NCBI GenBank assembly: GCA_035533755.1 | Contig: DATLTC010000099.1 | Coordinates: 1-64,000, forward strand | DNA: 64,000 bases | Direction of reading: 5' to 3' | Source: Gemmatimonadaceae bacterium | GTDB taxonomy: Bacteria > Gemmatimonadota > Gemmatimonadetes > Gemmatimonadales > Gemmatimonadaceae | In this document: positions 118-8,570 of the stretch, one piece after another | How positions within the stretch are numbered: position 1 is the stretch's first letter | Layout: every line of letters begins with the position of its first letter | Program-made: the position numbers and the translations under genes | Notes under the pieces: generated by a model | What the model was told of the DNA's origin: nothing | The model's input: the letters and a program-made list of their open reading frames with translations, nothing else | Databases searched by the model: none

Positions 118-152
118 CCCGATGCGAAGAAAGGCCCCGGCGTTGGCCGGGG
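118..152. repeat. 35-bp direct repeat, left copy flanking the mobile element
   Basis: These 35 bases are identical to 7296-7330. They start CCCGATGCGAAG and end TTGGCCGGGG. Identity stops exactly where the element begins with TGTGG at 153. The copy contains most of a G+C-rich terminator hairpin but lacks its final CCTTT, which is present only at the right copy. It also contains part of the ribosome site of the leftward permease gene. It is either an unusually long target-site duplication or a recombination-generated repeat. Confidence 0.9.
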
Positions 153-233
153 TGTGGCTCTGCGAGTTCTCTCGTAATTGTCTGGGCGCTGTCTCGTAAC
201 CCCACTCCCTAGCCCGAGTGAGTTGTTTTGTAA
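153..233 (+). repeat. Element end L1: terminus plus three subterminal repeats
   Basis: TGT at 153-155, then repeats at 169-177 (CTCTCGTAA), 191-199 (GTCTCGTAA) and 225-233 (GTTTTGTAA). The first begins 16 nt from the terminus and the steps are 22 and 34 bp. The repeat units are the most diverged of the four ends, suggesting this is the oldest or least active one. The 22/34 spacing matches end L3 (22/33) rather than the right end. Confidence 0.7.
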
Positions 234-274
234 CTTCCTGGGGGCAGGACCGGAAGGGACAGTCCGCAGACGGC

Positions 275-455
275 GAAGTCGACCTGAGCCTCAAAACGGC
301 GATCCGCAGATACATCGAGTTCGTGCTTGCGACTGATCGCTGGCCAGCGTCCAAGTCGGGCCGCCCGCCTGCTGGGCCTGCCGTATTCGACCCTTCAGAG
401 CACCATGAAGCGGCTGGGCATCCGAGTGCGTTCCGGTCGCGACCCACCCGAGTGA
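275..455 (+). pseudogene. Frameshifted C-terminal Fis-type HTH remnant of an NtrC-like regulator
   Basis: One frame from 275 reads EVDLSLKTAIRRYIEFVLATDRW. After a one-base shift near 341-344 a second frame continues SRAARLLGLPYSTLQSTMKRLGIRV and stops at 453-455. Together these reproduce the Fis-like (HTH_8) DNA-binding tail of sigma-54 response regulators, in which a helix ending R-x-x-I-x-x-V-L is followed by A-A-x-x-L-G-L-x-x-S-T-L-x-x-x-M-K-x-L-G-I. The receiver and AAA+ domains are absent because the fragment begins just inside element end L1. It is therefore a relic, both truncated and frameshifted. A sequencing error could explain the shift but not the missing domains. Confidence 0.7.
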
Positions 456-508
456 GGCACGTGCGTGCTGGCACGCCCTCCGCCGCGGCGCGGCGGGGAT
501 GACGAGCC

Positions 509-1297
509 TCAGCGCTCGGCAGCGACCACGACGAGGGTGATCTTCGTCTGACCGCGGCGAATGCCAAGTCGCACCGACTGACCGGGCGCGATCGCGCTCC
601 ACCGCCGTCCGCCTTCGGGCGTGGTGAGCAAAATGCCGCCGATACTCTCCACGATATCCCCGGCGCGAACCCCTGCCCGCGCCGCGGGCCCATCGGCGCG
701 GACCGCGAACACGACGGGCGCCTTCCCGAACGACCAGATTTCCGCCCCGTGCTGGCTCGATTGCACCGTGCACTGGCACGACAGACCGATGCCGAGCCAC
801 CCCGGCGCGTGGGCGCGGGGCGCGCCGCCGGTTTGCACCGGCGACCCCGCCACCGCGGGCTCCGAAGCGAGTGACTTCGCCTTCGCCAACTCCCCGCCCG
901 TCGGCACGATGACGACCTCCCGGTCGCGCCCGCTACGGCGAATCGTCAAGCGGAGCGGGAGGCCCGGCCGCGCGTCGAAGAGATGCTCACTTCCCTCGCG
1001 TGTGGTGATGAGCGCACCGTCCACGGCGACCAGCATGTCGCCATCGCGCACCTGTGCCGCCGCCGGCCCGTTCGGCCGGATGTCTCGGAGTTCGAGCTCT
1101 CCCCCGAGCTGGATCCAGTCGTCGGCCGCATGCACGATCGCGTACGGCGCGATCATGCGCCCGATCCCGAGATCCGGACCGCTGCCGCCGGAGCCGCTGA
1201 ACACCGCCTGCCCCCACGCCCGTCCGGTTGAGAGCGCCAAGGCTGCCAGGACGATTACCGCCGGGATCAGGACCGTCTTGCGTCGATTCCACCGCAT
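509..1297 (-). CDS. Secreted protein with two PDZ domains
   Basis: A 262-residue protein with an N-terminal signal peptide (charged MRWNRRK, hydrophobic core to about residue 27, then AWGQ). Two PDZ-like modules follow: residues about 60-130 (RPNGPAAAQVRDGDMLVAVDG) and 195-258 (GPAARAGVRAGDIVESIGG). No protease triad is present, so it is probably a periplasmic peptide-binding or scaffold protein rather than a DegP-type protease. It is the last gene of a minus-strand operon: sigma factor, membrane protein, then this protein. An unusually complete ribosome site, GGAGGTGAT, lies immediately before the ATG. The order suggests an envelope-stress module in which the PDZ protein is the output or sensor, which is inference. 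Confidence 0.75.
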   Translation of the reverse strand: MRWNRRKTVLIPAVIVLAALALSTGRAWGQAVFSGSGGSGPDLGIGRMIAPYAIVHAADDWIQLGGELELRDIRPNGPAAAQVRDGDMLVAVDGALITTREGSEHLFDARPGLPLRLTIRRSGRDREVVIVPTGGELAKAKSLASEPAVAGSPVQTGGAPRAHAPGWLGIGLSCQCTVQSSQHGAEIWSFGKAPVVFAVRADGPAARAGVRAGDIVESIGGILLTTPEGGRRWSAIAPGQSVRLGIRRGQTKITLVVVAAER

Positions 1298-1362
1298 ATC
1301 ACCTCCGCTTCTGAGTTCGCCCCATGCGCACCGGTGTCGATCGGTTTGCTCTTCTTGGTGCC

Positions 1363-1899
1363 TCAGAACCAGTGGATCGTTGCATCGGCTCGCGTCGGCG
1401 CCGACACCTCATCGTCGCATGGGATCCGCTCCGCCCCCACCCCGGATGAGAGGCGCGGGAGCTGCACCGCCGCGGCGCACAGCGTGGTCGCTGCGGATTC
1501 GCGCCCGTCGGCCAGCCCGGGGGCGGCCGGATGGGCGCGTGCGAGCGCCGCGAATTGGACCAGCGCGCCGACATACTCTGAGCCGGCGCGCTGCACGCGC
1601 AGCTCGGCGCTGCGCAGGTTGGACACCGGGGCCGGCCACGCCCGGACCGCGTCGACTCGCTCCAGGCTAGCGCGTGCGCGGGACGCTCCGGTGATACTCC
1701 CGGCGACGAACAGCGCGAGGGCAGCGGCCACGCCGGCGGCGTATGCGGCATATCGTTGCCAGCGCGGAACCGGCAGCATCCCGCGCCGACGCAGCGCCCG
1801 CACTGCGCGGTCCTCCTCCCCAGGCGGCGGCGCGCTCTCCCACGGGAGCGACGCCAGGGCCGTCATGAGTTCCGGGGGGAGTCGATCATCGTGATCCAT
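1363..1899 (-). CDS. Single-pass membrane protein, putative anti-sigma factor
   Basis: This 178-residue protein has a charged N-terminal cytoplasmic portion of about 48 residues, one transmembrane helix at roughly 50-68 (YAAYAAGVAAALALFVAGSIT) and an extracytoplasmic region of about 110 residues. It lies 15 nt downstream of the ECF sigma gene on the same strand. Gene order and topology are those of membrane anti-sigma factors. I do not see the His-x3-Cys-x2-Cys zinc motif of the ZAS class, so the assignment rests on context. The C-terminal region has two cysteines (C-A-A-A-V and I-P-C-D-D) that could be redox-sensing or structural. Confidence 0.5.
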   Translation of the reverse strand: MDHDDRLPPELMTALASLPWESAPPPGEEDRAVRALRRRGMLPVPRWQRYAAYAAGVAAALALFVAGSITGASRARASLERVDAVRAWPAPVSNLRSAELRVQRAGSEYVGALVQFAALARAHPAAPGLADGRESAATTLCAAAVQLPRLSSGVGAERIPCDDEVSAPTRADATIHWF

Positions 1900-1914
1900 T
1901 GCGGTTCATCCTCT

Positions 1915-2436
1915 TCAGCGGAGCGCGCTCCGCATCGCGTTGCGCGCGTGAGTGAGTTGACTCTTCGACGTGCCGGGAACAATTCCCATGAGCGCGGCGA
2001 TTTCGTCGTGGGTGTATCCCTCAAGATCGTGCAGGACCATGACGGCGCGCTGCCGTGGTGGCAGCGCGTCCAGGGCCCTCGTCACGTCGAGGCCGTCGCC
2101 CGGCGGCGGGGCACCGTCGGCGACGAACTCCAGCGCCGCGTCACCGGCCCACCGCTCGTTGCGGCGCAGCACCTCGAGCGCGGCGTGCGCGCCGATGCCA
2201 CAAAGCCAGGTGGAGAGGGTCGATTCCCAACGGAAGCGGTCGAGCGCTGCGCACGCGCGCAGCCAACTCTCCTGCACCACGTCGTCCACCTCATGGGCGG
2301 TGTGGCCGAGCAATCGCAGTACCACGCCCCGCATCCGCGGCGTGTGCCGGCGATAGAGTTGCCGGAACGCGGCCTCGGATCCGTCGAGGTACTGCCGGGC
2401 GAGCGCCCGATCAGAGGCATCGGGAAGTGCCTTCAT
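1915..2436 (-). CDS. ECF-type RNA polymerase sigma factor
   Basis: A 173-residue protein of ECF size. Sigma region 2 spans about residues 20-90 (EAAFRQLYRRHTPRMR, then DDVVQESWLRACAALDRFR and STWLCGIGAHAALEVLRR). Region 4 spans about 118-170 (LPPRQRAVMVLHDLEGYTHD, then EIAALMGIVPGTSKSQLTHAR). No sigma 3 domain or C-terminal extension is present. It is the first gene of an operon with a membrane protein and a secreted PDZ protein. A perfect 6-bp-arm palindrome lies about 90 nt upstream. The ATG has no strong ribosome site. ECF factors usually recognise their own promoter and are held by a co-encoded anti-sigma factor. Confidence 0.88.
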   Translation of the reverse strand: MKALPDASDRALARQYLDGSEAAFRQLYRRHTPRMRGVVLRLLGHTAHEVDDVVQESWLRACAALDRFRWESTLSTWLCGIGAHAALEVLRRNERWAGDAALEFVADGAPPPGDGLDVTRALDALPPRQRAVMVLHDLEGYTHDEIAALMGIVPGTSKSQLTHARNAMRSALR

Positions 2437-2523
2437 GACAATGAGGGGCAGCAGACGCCTCGAAGGTTGCAGCCATCCGCGGAGCGCGCAAGCGGAGGGG
2501 TGCCGACGCCTCTCCGATGCCGT

Positions 2524-2539
2524 TCACGAAATGTCGTGA
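2524..2539. promoter_or_regulatory. Palindrome upstream of the ECF sigma operon, candidate operator
   Basis: TCACGA-aatg-TCGTGA is a perfect inverted repeat with 6-bp arms and a 4-bp spacer, about 90 nt upstream of the sigma-factor ATG and about 30 nt from internal element end L2. The size and spacing suit a dimeric regulator. No regulator can be assigned, and chance occurrence is possible in this G+C-rich DNA. Confidence 0.3.
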
Positions 2540-2567
2540 GCGGCTTCACAATGGCTTCCGCGAATTA

Positions 2568-2637
2568 TGTGAAATTGCAGAACTTGGCGTAATTCAGTTG
2601 CGCGCACTATCGTCATTTCTTGCACTCTCTATCGTCA
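2568..2637 (+). repeat. Internal element end L2 with three subterminal repeats
   Basis: TGTGAAATTGCAGAAC (2568-2583) is followed by repeats at 2584-2592 (degenerate TTGGCGTAA), 2607-2615 and 2629-2637 (both CTATCGTCA). Steps are 23 and 22 bp, the same as the right end R. The stretch 2588-2617 matches the corresponding part of the reverse-complemented right end at 28 of 30 positions by eye. It is oriented as a left end. It marks the border between the ECF sigma module and the ABC ATPase module. Confidence 0.65.
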
Positions 2638-2639
2638 GG

Positions 2640-3122
2640 CAGTCGCGTTGGACATAGAGGGTACGGTGTCCTCGCGCACGAGACGCACTGTGGCACTGCA
2701 CGAGCCAAGTCCCATGTCCCATCATACCCCAGATTACACAGTCCCGTCTATCGTATCGCGCGCTTCTGGCCACCGGGAAGCCCCGGTCCGCGTCCGGCAC
2801 GATTCAACCCTTTCTCGCCGTAGATGGGGCGATGGTAGGCGTTTCCTGACCATTGGTGACTCGGATCTGAGGCCCCCACCGACCACATTCCGGAACTCTA
2901 GTGTCCACTCATAGGTACAGAATGCTGCGTCGCCGGGACGGCCGGCGATGATGCACTAAGCGGCTGGCCGCCGGGACGTGGCGCACCCGCCAGAGTGGGT
3001 CGGTACACTGTATCAGTCCGGGCATGTCGGTGCAGAGCCGTTCGCCGGAAATCACAACCGTCCTGGCCGTCAGGTCGGGGCACGCCCTTTCGCGCCCCTC
3101 GAAACGCCATGGGAGTCGTTGC
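2640..3122. other. Non-coding stretch between element end L2 and the small membrane protein gene
   Basis: No convincing gene is present: the short open frames here have no signal peptide, domain or credible start. One isolated copy of the subterminal repeat (CTATCGTA at 2748-2755) occurs without a TGT terminus 16 nt before it. That suggests decayed element sequence. I see no RNA gene. Confidence 0.5.
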
Positions 3123-3437
3123 ATGACATGGGATCTCACTCGGATCCTACTCTTTCGGTTCACCGCTCTCTGGCTCGGGCTCCGGGGCCTGGCCGCGCTC
3201 GCCAGTCTCATGGTCGGCGTTTCCCTGGCACCCTCGGCAAGCGTGAGCTTTCGAATCGCATTACTGCTCGCGCTGGTCGCCTATATCGACATCCGGCGGC
3301 GGGGCGAGCGGATTCTGCTCGCCGATCTCACCGTCGGCACCACATCCACGGTCACCGGGGCCTTCTGCGTCGGGCTCCTCGCCGAGGGGATGCTGGGCAT
3401 AGCCTTCGCAGCATTCTCGCATGCGTTCGTGAGATGA
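3123..3437 (+). CDS. Small hydrophobic membrane protein, unknown
   Basis: The 104-residue product starts MTWDLTRILLF. The ATG at 3123 is preceded by GGGAG at 3111-3115, 7 nt away, which is why this start is preferred over longer in-frame ones. Three hydrophobic segments lie at about residues 8-35, 38-58 and 72-100, the last rich in Gly and Ala. The stop codon overlaps the start of the following ABC ATPase gene (ATGA), so the two are translationally coupled and probably form one complex. I recognise no family. It could be a minimal membrane partner or assembly factor for the ATPase. Confidence 0.55.
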   Translation: MTWDLTRILLFRFTALWLGLRGLAALASLMVGVSLAPSASVSFRIALLLALVAYIDIRRRGERILLADLTVGTTSTVTGAFCVGLLAEGMLGIAFAAFSHAFVR

Positions 3438-4204
3438 CCTTCGCGCCGCGAGAAGTCCTCCGGGCCGACAGCATCGTCGTCACATTCGGCGATCGCAGGG
3501 TCCTCACCGCGGCTACGCTGCGCGCCGAAGCCGGGGAAGTGGTGGTCCTGTTCGGGCGCAACGGGGCCGGCAAGTCCACGCTGCTCCACGTCGCCGCCGG
3601 ACTCCGACCTGCCACCAGTGGGGCCGTGCATTTCCAGGGGGAAGTCTACCTCCGTCCGTCGCTCGCACATCTCGCACGCCACGGGATGTTTCTCCTTCCC
3701 GACCGGGATCTTCTATCGGGCAACCTGACGCTTCGTCGGCACATGAGCCTCTTCGCGGCACGTTTCGATCGTCCGCTAATCGAGCAGGCCGCGGCCTTGG
3801 TGGGCCTCACAGAGCGGCTGGACCAGCGCGCCGATGCGTGCTCAGGTGGAGAACGACGTCTTGCCGAAGTCGCCCTCGCGTGGCTGCGCGGGCCGACTTG
3901 CCTGCTCGCCGACGAGCCATACCGGGATGTCGCGCCGATCGTCGGTGATACGCTGTCACGGGTCTTCCGCGAAATGGCGGATGCTGGATGCGCCGTAGTG
4001 CTCAGTGGACACGACAGCGAGACGCTGCTAGGCATCGCTGATCGCGTGGTGTGGTGCACCGCGGGGACGACCTATGAACTCGGTGACGCCGAGCACGCGC
4101 GCCGCGATCCTCGCTTTGTGGCTGATTATCTGGGGATGCGTGGCCCGCCGCTGCCCCCCGGGCGGCCCGAACCGCCAGCGGATCGGCCCCTTGAGGATTT
4201 CTGA
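3434..4204 (+). CDS. ABC transporter ATP-binding protein
   Basis: The 256-residue ATPase starts at the ATG overlapping the upstream stop codon. Walker A is GRNGAGKST at residues 41-49. The signature is degenerate, CSGGERR instead of LSGGQ. Walker B reads CLLADEP and the switch histidine is in LSGHDSE. The layout resembles LptB/LivF-type cytoplasmic ATPases. The residues after Walker B (YRDVAP) differ from the usual L-S-A-L-D-P D-loop. The partner permease is not adjacent in the standard way: upstream is only a 104-residue membrane protein, and the ADOP permease downstream is in a separate module with its own promoter region. Substrate is unknown. Confidence 0.8.
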   Translation: MTFAPREVLRADSIVVTFGDRRVLTAATLRAEAGEVVVLFGRNGAGKSTLLHVAAGLRPATSGAVHFQGEVYLRPSLAHLARHGMFLLPDRDLLSGNLTLRRHMSLFAARFDRPLIEQAAALVGLTERLDQRADACSGGERRLAEVALAWLRGPTCLLADEPYRDVAPIVGDTLSRVFREMADAGCAVVLSGHDSETLLGIADRVVWCTAGTTYELGDAEHARRDPRFVADYLGMRGPPLPPGRPEPPADRPLEDF

Positions 4205-4228
4205 TCACCGCGCCAAGACGTATCAGCG

Positions 4229-4308
4229 TGTCACTTTGCGCGCTCTATCGTAAGTCCCGCGGCGGTCTATCGGAATTGTACCCGACAAGAGGCGTTGCTC
4301 TATCGTAA
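4229..4308 (+). repeat. Internal element end L3 with three subterminal repeats
   Basis: TGTCACTTTGCGCGCT (4229-4244) precedes repeats at 4245-4253 (CTATCGTAA), 4267-4275 (CTATCGGAA) and 4300-4308 (CTATCGTAA). Steps are 22 and 33 bp, as in L1. It is the best-conserved left-type end. Together with the right end it would delimit a 3,067-bp unit (4229-7295) containing only the ADOP permease. Confidence 0.75.
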
Positions 4309-4674
4309 TTCGGCATAGGTGCCGGCGTGGCAGCCACCCACGTGATCATACGGGGGGCGCCCCAACGCGGAGGCCCCCTCCGCCAGCCGCCCTCTTCCAC
4401 ATTTCAGGGCCCTAACGACCGCCGTGATACCCGGTCGTGCTCGGCGCCTCCCGTCGCTCCTCGTAGGATCTCCCAACGGGCAGAGGAGTGGCCCGGCTGA
4501 CGCCAAGGCATGCGTCCCCTGCCTCTGCACGATTTAGTCTTTGCATATTGGCGTGTCGTGGATGTACAGTGTGGCATCGTCCTGCACCGCGGGCGTGCTT
4601 CACGGCGCGAGAGTAAGGGTGCCCTACCATTCGCCCGGGACGACCACACAGGCGCATTTTCCGGAGGTCGACGG
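4309..4674. other. Leader region of the ADOP permease gene
   Basis: This 366-nt stretch holds no supportable gene apart from an unlikely N-terminal extension of the permease frame. It contains a possible sigma-70-like promoter near 4541-4570. Its 3' end is the ribosome site GGAGG at 4663-4667. Confidence 0.4.
4541..4570 (+). promoter_or_regulatory. Possible sigma-70-type promoter for the ADOP permease
   Basis: TTGCAT (4541-4546), an 18-bp spacer and TACAGT (4565-4570) lie about 105 nt before the permease start. Both hexamers are imperfect and consensus promoters are poorly defined in this group. This is a weak call. Confidence 0.25.
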
Positions 4675-7200
4675 ATGATGACTCCGCGACAGTCTGAACA
4701 TCGAAGCGGTCTTCGCGTGGTACGATCTGGATGGATGGATGGGTTGCGCCAGGATGTCGTCTATGTGGCGCGCTCACTCGCTCGCTCGCCCGGGCTCACC
4801 GCCGCAATCGTGATAACTCTCGCGCTCGGGTTGGGGACCAACGCAGCGATCTTTTCGTTTCTCGACCAGGTGTTCCTCCAGGCGCCTGCCGGGGTTGCTT
4901 CCCCGGGGCGTGTGCATCGCCTCTGGATCGAGCAGCCCAGGGGAAACAGTCGCGTGCCATCCATCTCGCAGGCGTTGAGCTACCACGAGTACCGCGTGCT
5001 CGATGCGGCGCTCGCCGATCAGGCGCAGCTCGCCCTGTACGCGTTGCGGACGGCGGTCCCGCTCGGGCGAGGCGATGCGTCGGCGACCGCGACGGTCGCG
5101 TACACGACCGCGAACTATTTCACCGTGCTCGGCGTTCAGCCGATGATCGGACGTGCATTTGCCGATGCCGAAGCCGACGTGCACGCGCCGAGCCGGGTGG
5201 TCGTCATCAGCGACGCGTTCTGGCACCGGGAGCTTGGCGCGGCCTCGGGCGCCGTCGGCACGATGCTGACCATCGACGGTCACCAGTATGCCGTTGTCGG
5301 TATCGCGCCCGCACACTTCAGCGGCATCGACTTGCAGCACGTGGACCTCTGGCTGCCTCTGGGCACCTTCCCGACTCACAACGTGGGCCGAGCGCCCTTC
5401 TGGGAATCGAACGCGACGATTGCCTTCTCGGCGTTCGGGCGCTGGGCGCCTCACGCCGACCGCCAGGTCCTTGAGGCCCGCGCGACCGATGCATTTCGCC
5501 ACACGCCACGGACTGACTTTTCGACGAGCCCCACGGCGCAGCTGTCCTTCAGATCGATCATCGAGGCGCGGGGGCCGGGCAGCCGGCCGCAGGAGGTGAC
5601 GCTCGCCGTTCGCCTGGCGGTCGTCGCGATCATCATTCTATTCATCGCGGGCGCCAACGCCATCAACCTCCTGCTGGCCCGCGCCATGGCCCGACGTCGC
5701 GAAGTGGCCGTCAGACTGGCACTCGGCATCAGCCGCGCGCGTCTCGCGCGCTTGTTCGTTGTGGAAGGCGTGCTCCTATCGCTCGCAGCCGGAGCCGCCG
5801 CCGTGCTGTCGGCACAGACTACGGCCGCCTTGGTTCGGGGACTGCTGCTACCGGGCACGGAGTTCGCCGACGGCTCGCTCAGTTGGCACGTGATCGCGTT
5901 CACCGTTGGGCTGTCGCTCATTGCGGGAATAGTGGCCGGCCTGGTGCCCGCGCTTCAGGCGACCGAACCGGACCTGGCCCGGTCGCTCAGGGTGACTCTG
6001 CGCGAAGGAGTCCAGGGACGCGCGCTGCTGCCCAAAGCACTCGTTGGTGCGCAGGCGGCACTCTCCGTTCTGCTCCTGGTCGGCGCCGCGTTGTGTGTGC
6101 TCAGCCTCACCAATATCGAGCAGTTGCACATCGGGTTTGATGTTCCGCGCCTGGCGTACGCGTCCGTGCAGTTCCCTGCGGGTGCGCGCCCGGACACCGT
6201 CGCCTTCACGAGCGGCATGCGCGCCGCGGGGGAACGGCTGCGCGGGGCGCCGGGGGTCGAGGCGGTGGCCTTCGCGTGGGACGAGCCCATGCGGCGGTTT
6301 GGCACCGTCAAGTTCTATACGGCCACGGACTCGTCCGACTCCGGAACCGAGCCGGTGCCGACCGGCAGCTACGTCTCGGCGGACTACTTCAAGGCCATCG
6401 GGGTGCCCGTGTTGCGAGGCCGCAGCTTTGGGGACCAGGCGCAGGGCAACTCGGCAGCCGCGGTCGTCGTGAACCAGACCCTGGCACGTACCTTCTGGCC
6501 CGGGCAGGACCCGATCGGTCAGTGTATCTACCTGCAAACGCGGCAAAGTCCGTGCGCGACCATCGTCGGAGTGGTCGGTGACGCCATTCGCGAGCGGCTC
6601 ACAGAACAGCGCGCGCCGCAGCTGTACTTGCCGATCTTTCAGTCCATGCGGGGCGCACGACCGCCCCAGGTCATGGTGATTCGTGCCGATCCCAAGCGCC
6701 TGGCCGCAGTGATGGCACAGACCCGGAGTACCCTTCGCCAAGCGTTCCCCGGCGGCGAGCCCGGCGTGGTGCGCATGGCGGATCGGCTCGCGCCGCAATA
6801 TCACCCGTGGGAACTCGGGGCCAGCTTGTTCAGCGTGTTCGGTGGGCTCGCCATGGTAATCGCAGGATTGGGCATCTACAGCACCGTGTCGTACTCGGTC
6901 ACCCAACGCGTGCACGAACTTGGAGTTCGCATGGCCCTGGGCGCGGATGCTGCCGATCTGATGCGGGACGTGATTGGGCGGGGGCTCCGGCCCGTGATGA
7001 GCGGCGCGGTAGTCGGTGCCGTGCTGTCGCTCGCCGGTGGGCGGTTCGTCGCGTCGCGTCTCTACGGCACGGCCCCATGGAACCCTGCCGTCATCGCGTC
7101 CGTCGTGCTCACACTGCTTGGGGCCGGACTCGTCGCGGCGTCGATTCCGGCGTGGCGCGCGGCACACATCGATCCGGTGCGAACGCTGAATGCGGACTGA
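4675..7200 (+). CDS. ADOP family duplicated ABC-type permease (MacB/FtsX type)
   Basis: The start at 4675 has GGAGG 7 nt upstream and gives 841 residues, normal for this family. The architecture is a tandem MacB/FtsX permease. TM1 is at about 43-65 (ITLALGLGTNAAIFSF, preceded by the hallmark SLARSPGLTAA). A MacB-like periplasmic domain follows, then three helices at about 305-425. A second anchor lies at about 452-478, followed by a second periplasmic domain and a C-terminal FtsX block from about 712. The end, PAWRAAHIDPVRTL, is the conserved ADOP tail. These proteins lack their own ATPase and are expanded into many paralogues in Acidobacteriota and relatives. Substrate is unknown, with efflux or lipoprotein-type mechanotransmission possible. 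It is the sole gene of the third element module. Confidence 0.9.
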   Translation: MMTPRQSEHRSGLRVVRSGWMDGLRQDVVYVARSLARSPGLTAAIVITLALGLGTNAAIFSFLDQVFLQAPAGVASPGRVHRLWIEQPRGNSRVPSISQALSYHEYRVLDAALADQAQLALYALRTAVPLGRGDASATATVAYTTANYFTVLGVQPMIGRAFADAEADVHAPSRVVVISDAFWHRELGAASGAVGTMLTIDGHQYAVVGIAPAHFSGIDLQHVDLWLPLGTFPTHNVGRAPFWESNATIAFSAFGRWAPHADRQVLEARATDAFRHTPRTDFSTSPTAQLSFRSIIEARGPGSRPQEVTLAVRLAVVAIIILFIAGANAINLLLARAMARRREVAVRLALGISRARLARLFVVEGVLLSLAAGAAAVLSAQTTAALVRGLLLPGTEFADGSLSWHVIAFTVGLSLIAGIVAGLVPALQATEPDLARSLRVTLREGVQGRALLPKALVGAQAALSVLLLVGAALCVLSLTNIEQLHIGFDVPRLAYASVQFPAGARPDTVAFTSGMRAAGERLRGAPGVEAVAFAWDEPMRRFGTVKFYTATDSSDSGTEPVPTGSYVSADYFKAIGVPVLRGRSFGDQAQGNSAAAVVVNQTLARTFWPGQDPIGQCIYLQTRQSPCATIVGVVGDAIRERLTEQRAPQLYLPIFQSMRGARPPQVMVIRADPKRLAAVMAQTRSTLRQAFPGGEPGVVRMADRLAPQYHPWELGASLFSVFGGLAMVIAGLGIYSTVSYSVTQRVHELGVRMALGADAADLMRDVIGRGLRPVMSGAVVGAVLSLAGGRFVASRLYGTAPWNPAVIASVVLTLLGAGLVAASIPAWRAAHIDPVRTLNAD

Positions 7201-7225
7201 GGGGTGTTCTGACGCTCACAAACAA

Positions 7226-7295
7226 TTATGATAGAATCCGCAAACAATTACGATAGAGCGCGCAACTGAATTACGATAGAAAGTGCAAATCCACA
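7226..7295 (-). repeat. Element right end R with three subterminal repeats
   Basis: Read on the minus strand from 7295: TGTGGATTTGCACTTT, then CTATCGTAA (7271-7279), CTATCGTAA (7248-7256) and CTATCATAA (7226-7234), with steps of 23 and 22 bp. It is the only end in this orientation and pairs with L1, L2 or L3. The adjacent right direct repeat begins at 7296. Confidence 0.8.
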
Positions 7296-7330
7296 CCCGA
7301 TGCGAAGAAAGGCCCCGGCGTTGGCCGGGG
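7296..7330. repeat. 35-bp direct repeat, right copy flanking the mobile element
   Basis: Exact duplicate of 118-152, starting immediately after the terminal CCACA of the element. Unlike the left copy it continues into CCTTT and so completes the terminator hairpin downstream of pilC. Confidence 0.9.
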
Positions 7331-7335
7331 CCTTT
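7308..7335 (-). terminator. Intrinsic terminator of the pilB-pilT-pilC operon
   Basis: A perfect 12-bp stem (AAAGGCCCCGGC with GCCGGGGCCTTT) with a 4-nt loop lies about 40 nt beyond the pilC stop. On the minus strand it is followed by a T-rich TTTCTTC. The A/T ends of the stem could let it work in both directions. Its left part is duplicated at the far side of the mobile element. Confidence 0.75.
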
Positions 7336-7376
7336 CTCGTGATCCACAACTCCACGAGCGCGCGTTACTGCCGCGC

Positions 7377-8570
7377 CTACTGCACCGCGTTCACCATGTC
7401 GAAGATCGGCAGGTACATGGCCACCACCATGCCGCCCACGACGACGCCCAGGAACACGATCATCACCGGCTCCATCAGCGCCAGCAGGTTGCTCACCGCG
7501 GCGTCCACTTCTTCGTCATAGAAGTCGGCGATCTTGGACAGCATCTCGTCCAGGCCGCCCGTCTGCTCGCCCACGTTGATCATGCTGATCACCATCGGCG
7601 GGAAGACCTGGCTCTTCTTGAGCGGCGCGCTGATCGTCTCACCGCCGGCGATGCTCGCCCGGCTCTCCATGATCGCATCCTGGATCACGCGATTGCCCGC
7701 GGTCTTGGCCGTGATCTCGAGGCCGTCGAGAATGCTCACGCCCGACCCGATCAGGGTGCCCAGCGTGCGCGTGAACCGCGACACGGCCGACTTGCGCAGC
7801 ACGTCGCCCAGCACGGGCGCCTGCAGCGCCAACCGGTCGATGACGAGTTTTCCGTCGGGCGTGGCGTAGTACTTCTTGCCCAAGTACCCGGCCAGTCCGG
7901 CGCCGCCGAACACGGCCCACCAGTACGTCTTCAGAAAGTGCGACAGCCCGATCACGATGCGCGTGGGCAACGGCAGCGCCACGTTCACGCTCGAGAACAT
8001 GTTCTGGAAGACGGGGATCACGAAGATCAGCAGCACGGCGATGGCCGCGCCGGCCACGGTCATGATCACCGCCGGATAGATCATCGCGCCCTTCACCTTG
8101 CGCACCAGGGCGTCGTTCTTTTCCATGAACACGGCCAGACGCAGCAGGATGGTGTCCAGGATGCCGCCCGCCTCGCCGGCCGCCACCATGTTCACGTACA
8201 GCTCCGTGAACGCCTTGGGATGCTTGCGCAACGCGTCGGCCACGGTATGGCCCGATTCCACGTCGAACACGATCTGCCGAGTGGTCTCGCACAGCGCCGG
8301 GTTCTCGCTCTGCTGCGCCAGGATGTCCAGCGCCTGCACCAGCGGCAGGCCGGCATTGATCATCGTCGAGAACTGCCGGGTGAAGATCACGATGTCGCGC
8401 ATCCCGACCTTCCCCAACCGCTTCTTCTTGCCCGACCCCTCATCGACCTTGACGACGGTCAGCCGCTGCTTGCGCAGCTGCGCGATCACCTCGTCACGGT
8501 TGGCCGCATCGATGGTATCGCTCTTCAACTGTCCGTTCGCGGTGCGAGCGGTGTACGTGAAAGTGGGCAT
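7377..8570 (-). CDS. pilC: Type IV pilus inner-membrane platform protein (GspF/PilC family)
   Basis: The 397-residue protein has the full PilC/GspF layout. There is an N-terminal cytoplasmic segment starting MPTFTYTARTANGQ, then two T2SSF domains (about residues 68-190 and 270-390), each ending in hydrophobic helices. Characteristic motifs include FTRQFSTMINAGLPLVQAL and FTRTLGTLIGSGVSILDGL. It is the platform that couples the pilus motors PilB and PilT to fibre assembly in the inner membrane. It is last in the operon pilB-pilT-pilC, 21 nt after pilT, and is followed by the hairpin terminator. Length and termini look intact. Confidence 0.95.
   Translation of the reverse strand: MPTFTYTARTANGQLKSDTIDAANRDEVIAQLRKQRLTVVKVDEGSGKKKRLGKVGMRDIVIFTRQFSTMINAGLPLVQALDILAQQSENPALCETTRQIVFDVESGHTVADALRKHPKAFTELYVNMVAAGEAGGILDTILLRLAVFMEKNDALVRKVKGAMIYPAVIMTVAGAAIAVLLIFVIPVFQNMFSSVNVALPLPTRIVIGLSHFLKTYWWAVFGGAGLAGYLGKKYYATPDGKLVIDRLALQAPVLGDVLRKSAVSRFTRTLGTLIGSGVSILDGLEITAKTAGNRVIQDAIMESRASIAGGETISAPLKKSQVFPPMVISMINVGEQTGGLDEMLSKIADFYDEEVDAAVSNLLALMEPVMIVFLGVVVGGMVVAMYLPIFDMVNAVQ

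Follow-up and report, generated by a model that had tools for sequence, protein, structure and literature searches.

A Putative Trans-Mobilised Cargo Element with Multi-Site TGT/ACA Ends at the 3' Region of pilC in a Gemmatimonadaceae Bacterium

The segment at positions 153-7295 of the 64,000-nucleotide stretch of Gemmatimonadaceae DNA analysed here (the window) is most probably (about two chances in three, 0.68) a non-autonomous cargo transposon mobilised in trans, and belongs to a family whose ends recurrently enter the 3' region of pilC. As expected of a passenger element, two inverted ends surround a unit in different genomic contexts (in genomes G206, G260, and G146), and no transposase is found inside.

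Boundaries and Direct Repeats

The element is abutted by the two copies of an exact 35-bp direct repeat (positions 118-152 and 7296-7330, identical at 35/35 positions, blastn-short E value 2e-15), with TGTGG starting at 153 and CCACA running up to 7295. An earlier note on this DNA had stated that the boundaries coincide with a 35-bp direct repeat, and they do so exactly. The insertion site is the 3' region of a pilC/gspF-type type IV pilus platform gene (7377-8570, minus strand), and most of the intrinsic terminator hairpin of this gene (7306-7337, minus strand) falls within the repeat. The repeat is read as a target-site duplication. The 13-bp hairpin is complete at the pilC-proximal copy (7296-7330) and incomplete at the distal copy (118-152), where the loop and one arm are kept and the other arm is truncated.

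The first base of the window is also the start of its contig. Another contig of the same genome (C97, 3,686 bp) overlaps at its end with bases 1-141 of the window, and carries the continuation of the left-flank gene as well as a cupin gene, which in the congener G206 is syntenic and lies after the element. The left junction is therefore real, and an assembly artefact at the contig start is ruled out. The contig break itself (141/142, with a 141-base overlap with C97) falls within the 35-bp repeat, in its terminator hairpin.

A 35-bp duplication was also found at L079, an element of about 1.9 kb located just beyond pilC in a soda-lake Gemmatimonadetes genome from another family of the class. 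Its copies, GCGCCGCGTTCTATCAGAAGTTTCGACAACCCCCA directly before the pilC-side end and TCGCCGCGTTCTATCAGAAGTCTCGATAACCCCCA directly after the far end, agree at 32/35 positions and abut both ends. The repeat detected by BLAST runs six bases into the end, and the length of 35 bp depends on the spacing-based placing of a degenerate far terminus (CGT...). The repeats of the window and L079 have the same length and unrelated sequences, and each takes in a portion of the terminator hairpin of pilC. The 35-bp duplication is restricted to these two insertions, none being seen around the end pairs of G260, G146, and G206; so in these three cases it was lost by decay or deletion, or the target cut varies.

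Terminal Arrays and Cargo

The termini are of the TGT...ACA type and carry iterated sites of about 22 bp, about three per end and two helical turns apart. The first CTMTCGTAAT site is found at nucleotide 17 from either terminus, and further sites follow at a spacing of 22-34 bp, which bears out the common layout that the earlier note had described for both termini. The left end (153-233, plus strand) opens with TGTGG and contains the sites CTCTCGTAATT, GTCTCGTAA, and TTTTGTAA; its homologue in G206 is located at L009:7530, with a homology break at the terminus. The right end (7226-7295, minus strand; homologue at G206 L009:9924-9996) contains three CTATCRTAATT sites in steps of 22-23 bp, and terminates in CCACA. 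Two left-type ends are internal: one with three sites at 2568-2637 (plus strand), which probably results from nested or successive insertion, and another at 4229-4310 (plus strand), upstream of the permease gene. The layout is thereby completed to three left-type ends (153, 2568, and 4229) and one right-type end, together with a flanking repeat that covers part of the pilC terminator hairpin.

An end profile to which other genera contributed 14 ends, and the window and its genus none, scored 32.3 bits at 7295, 27.6 at 4229, 21.2 at 153, and 18.7 at 2588-2637, the last match covering only the site part of the internal end at 2568. Position 1 of the profile falls to the base on 153, 4229, and 7295. 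The top score in a shuffled-window control (1.28 Mb) was 9.0 bits, and the window outside 153-7295 gave no match above 5 bits. End matches in the element's own genome (G000) are confined to this unit; a random scatter of the repeats across the genome, which had been named in advance as counting against a mobile unit, was not seen.

The cargo begins with a frame-broken remnant (290-455, plus strand; also present in G206) that by eye resembles the C-terminal Fis-type HTH of an NtrC-like regulator. It is followed on the minus strand by genes for a probably secreted two-PDZ protein (509-1297; Pfam PDZ_6 and PDZ_2), a probable membrane or anti-sigma-type protein that has no family match and is assigned by its position (1363-1899), and an ECF sigma factor (1915-2436; Sigma70_r2/r4). 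On the plus strand are found a small hydrophobic protein without family match (3024-3437), an ABC transporter ATPase (3434-4204; ABC_tran), and an ADOP-family duplicated permease of the MacB/FtsX type (4675-7200; TIGR03434 above cut-off, and Pfam MacB_PCD/FtsX). The Pfam/TIGR profile search of 153-7295 detected no transposase-like gene, and it agrees with the earlier description of the cargo as regulatory and ABC-type.

Comparison with a Congener

In the congener G206, the L009 segment 7529-9925 corresponds to window positions 152-2548 (90.8% identity over 2.4 kb), and the match runs on directly into window positions 7223-7294 (L009 up to 9995). The 2.47-kb unit of G206 is missing the 4.67-kb segment at 2549-7222 (hydrophobic protein, ABC ATPase, and ADOP permease), and its orientation relative to pilC is opposite to that in the window. 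The core unit (sigma factor/PDZ) is, thus, found beside pilC in two congeners in opposite orientations. Homology ends at 152/153 and 7294/7295, with different flanks; a relative showing the same gene order with no boundary at 152/153 and 7295/7296, which would have spoken against the element, is not what G206 offers. Of the evidence envisaged at the outset, empty sites did not materialise for the window insertion in a congener (G204 has a different gene there), and it is G206 that shows the boundaries.

G206 contains six ends within 3.8 kb beside pilC (L009 7472-11295), which make up three or more end pairs, nested or abutting. This array results from nested and abutting insertions, and consists of the sigma unit, an adjoining unit of 1.2 kb, and outer ends.

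Related Elements Downstream of pilC

At least six further genomes have related ends with unrelated cargo a short way downstream of pilC. For example, G260 contains a 10.7-kb element with oxidoreductase cargo about 29 bp past the pilC stop, whose ends are near-perfect inverted copies (TGTACGCTCCGACGCTCTATCGACA), and G146 contains a 1.2-kb element with inverted ends 10 bp past pilC. Besides L079, single ends are located at pilC in G257, G191, and G190. The elements lie at variable distances (10 to about 130 bp) from the pilC stop, and both orientations occur.

L079 was the sole true match in a two-site pattern scan of 84,980 genomes, the five other matches appearing to be due to chance. A search of 287 genomes, using an end model built partly from ends found at pilC and making no use of location, added G191 and G190 at pilC, together with further sites, in G110, G192, G228, G123, G191 (second site), and G109, for which a position at pilC is not known. 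Five of about 11 loci issued from location-blind searches (G206, L079, G146, G191, and G190) are located in the pilC 3' region; a random intergenic site would, by our own estimate, be expected there in roughly one case in a few thousand. Repeat arrays were also enriched within 200 bp of pilC (5 observed versus 0.36 expected, P = 4e-5), but as the background is mostly coding sequence, this enrichment could by itself reflect tolerance for intergenic insertions, and the test is weak alone. The pilC 3' region, on which the earlier note was silent, is the most informative feature of the family.

Weak end matches in G337 and G142 lie inside genes and are due to chance; another weak match occurs in G304. 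A plasmid collection was uninformative for both the window end and the G123 end, and viral contigs gave AT-rich chance matches only.

Several other arrays were observed in the course of these searches. At L131 (G144:C6), a different end motif, TGTTGCACCTGAAAACYGATTTACTGATTTGCC, is found beside pilC (about +22) and recurs 7-8 kb away, once in direct and once in inverted orientation (about +7020 and +8206). At L043 (G116:C1:774324-775028), two further array motifs, CATATCGTTCGC and AACAAAGTCCAG, lie within 700 bp downstream of pilC, and no other strong AT-rich arrays occur in 57 kb. At L182 (G110:C171), two tandem ends (4663-4776) adjoin a HipA-like gene, and no pilC was seen near them in the stretch read.

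Search for the Transposase

No match to PF09299 (Mu-transpos_C; TnsB/TniA/MuA-type), NF033546, NF033594, or the L232 transposase models was obtained in G000 and G206; by model, neither genome contains an IS21, Mu-C, ISNCY/IS1202, or L232-type transposase. The enzyme is, therefore, either of another subtype or at present absent from these genomes. The earlier proposal of a trans-mobilised passenger was, thus, strengthened as regards the passenger unit, whose true ends are established by G206 and the relatives; the enzyme was not found, and mobilisation in trans is the best inference.

The element L232 (G261:C24, 867-4142) is autonomous, 3.3 kb in length, and encodes a DDE transposase (rve, HTH_32, and Mu-transpos_C, related to IS481/Mu-C models) and an AAA ATPase (AAA_22, PEP-CTERM/ExeA-like). 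Related transposases were detected in 4 of 286 genomes and are rare in the order. Alignment of its left end to the G146 end gave a score of 44, which was equalled by one of 5000 background 48-mers starting with TGT, probably G146's own copy in the pool. L232 ends gave no match to the window ends, and the element shows no long duplication and is not known to be at pilC. The search for autonomous relatives with common ends, which the earlier note had recommended, was therefore productive for G146 only: the phylum sample contained no autonomous element with window-type ends.

Other candidate sources were rejected. The TnsB/TniB-like set of G116, located 28 kb from pilC and made up of a TnsB-like transposase, an ATPase, and a third large gene (L042, G116:C1:743144-748806), has no matching ends; the ISNCY/IS1202-type elements L193-L198 have other motifs and no visible long duplication; and IS21, despite many copies in the family, has arrays of other motifs.

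Proposed Mechanism and Alternative Explanations

In the mechanism that we propose, a DDE transposase of the TnsB/MuA/IstA class, probably assisted by an AAA ATPase and supplied in trans by another element, would bind the site arrays, pair the ends, and join them to the two target strands at positions 35 bp apart, after which gap repair would produce the direct repeat and leave pilC with a complete terminator. Later insertions of further units into the element would account for the ABC/ADOP genes and for the two internal ends (2568 and 4229).

The most serious alternative is that of a decayed autonomous transposon, whose ancestor lost its transposase and whose survivors are now immobile, fixed genomic islands. 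This would account for the missing transposase in every unit read, for the lack of candidate transposases in G000 and G206, and for several degenerate ends (CGT in place of TGT in L079 and G206). Nevertheless, the window repeat is still identical at 35/35 positions, which speaks for a fairly recent event, and independent transposase loss in several units of 1.2 to 10.7 kb with unrelated cargo is improbable; this explanation is, on balance, unlikely, though it deserves some weight.

Far less credit is given to a site-specific island or CIME, for whose integration a tyrosine recombinase would have used the pilC terminator as a 35-bp attachment site. Islands of this type typically have long direct repeats at the 3' ends of genes, and this explanation would cover both the long repeat and the rebuilt gene end, with the arrays near the ends acting as arm-type sites. 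However, the repeat exactly abuts inverted TGT/ACA termini, its sequence is wholly different in G000 and L079 despite common ends, and it is missing from three other cases; no copy is found at the internal junctions 2568 and 4229, and the unit (153-7295) contains no integrase gene. Finally, arrays adjoining pilC in several genera, with other array motifs also at pilC (G116, G144, and G198), might suggest regulatory or structural repeats of the pilC 3' end combined with ordinary gene turnover, but this is contradicted by the exact homology break at the termini and the inversion of the unit between G206 and G000, by inverted pairs kilobases apart in G260, G146, and G206, and by the same ends at sites not known at pilC (G110, G192, and G228), and is the least credible of all.

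With the trans-mobilised cargo transposon retained as the preferred reading, a broader one can be put forward tentatively: Gemmatimonadota may harbour an undescribed system with a fixed 35-bp staggered insertion, which homes to the pilC terminator and stacks transposase-less cargo there, nested or in tandem, so that pilC serves as a docking site. If true, this system would be cassette-like, and neither an integron nor Tn7; signalling, transport, and metabolic genes on the chromosomes of this understudied phylum would move as transposase-less packets with common ends and a common docking site. The two cases of 35-bp duplication exceed the 16-28 bp of the IS1202 group, and the enzyme would offer a test of transposome geometry versus stagger length. 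The pilC 3' regions constitute a simple genomic place to look for an active system.

Comparison with Known Systems

Transposases of the TnsB/MuA/IstA type typically act on TGT ends that contain several sites at a spacing of 22-23 bp, and the target duplication of Tn7, Mu, and Tn5053 is 5 bp. The element resembles these three systems in its several subterminal binding sites, as well as Tn7 in its TGT-type ends and its insertion beside the 3' end of a conserved gene (glmS for Tn7). Nevertheless, it contains no tns or tni genes, its duplication is 35 bp, not 5 bp, and its family shows a variable distance to pilC and both orientations, unlike the one fixed attachment of Tn7.

For IS21, a target duplication of 5 bp was measured, and IstA requires two repeats per end (PMC10122671). 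The likeness lies in the multiple terminal direct repeats (L1/L2 and R1/R2 in IS21) and the TGT ends, and IS21 copies of the same bacterial family do have terminal arrays of 22-25 bp, but with other motifs than those of the window. In addition, IS21 encodes istA/istB and duplicates 5 bp, whereas the window element lacks these genes and is flanked by 35 bp. The duplication length speaks against membership in IS21, Tn7, Mu, or Tn5053, and the kinship with them that the earlier note had suggested is unsupported in this sense; the element may still work like them.

The IS1202 family combines TGT/ACA ends, extra internal transposase sites, and a TnsB-like transposase; it includes one subgroup with long duplications of 16-28 bp and no known target, and another that is site-directed, to dif (PMC10132070). 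The ends, the extra internal sites, and the unusually long duplications of one subgroup are all reminiscent of the window element. However, every IS1202 member has its own transposase, the duplications are 16-28 bp versus 35 bp, and no ISNCY-type match occurs in G000 or G206.

Transposase-less ends mobilised in trans are known from the TIMEs and TIME-COMPs of Tn3, which may carry passenger genes (PMC4133298, PMC13367494), and from MITEs, which are non-autonomous elements mobilised in trans (PMC10969869). The window element likewise consists of ends without a transposase and carries passenger genes, but its multi-site TGT ends are not of the Tn3 type, its chromosomal cargo is much larger, and it has the 35-bp duplication and the pilC site. 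Within the phylum, L232 is a two-protein machine of the expected class, with a left end resembling those of the G146 relative, but it differs from the window element in its ends and in having no long duplication. Overall, the closest known kinds are the passenger or miniature non-autonomous elements, together with the long-duplication IS1202 group.
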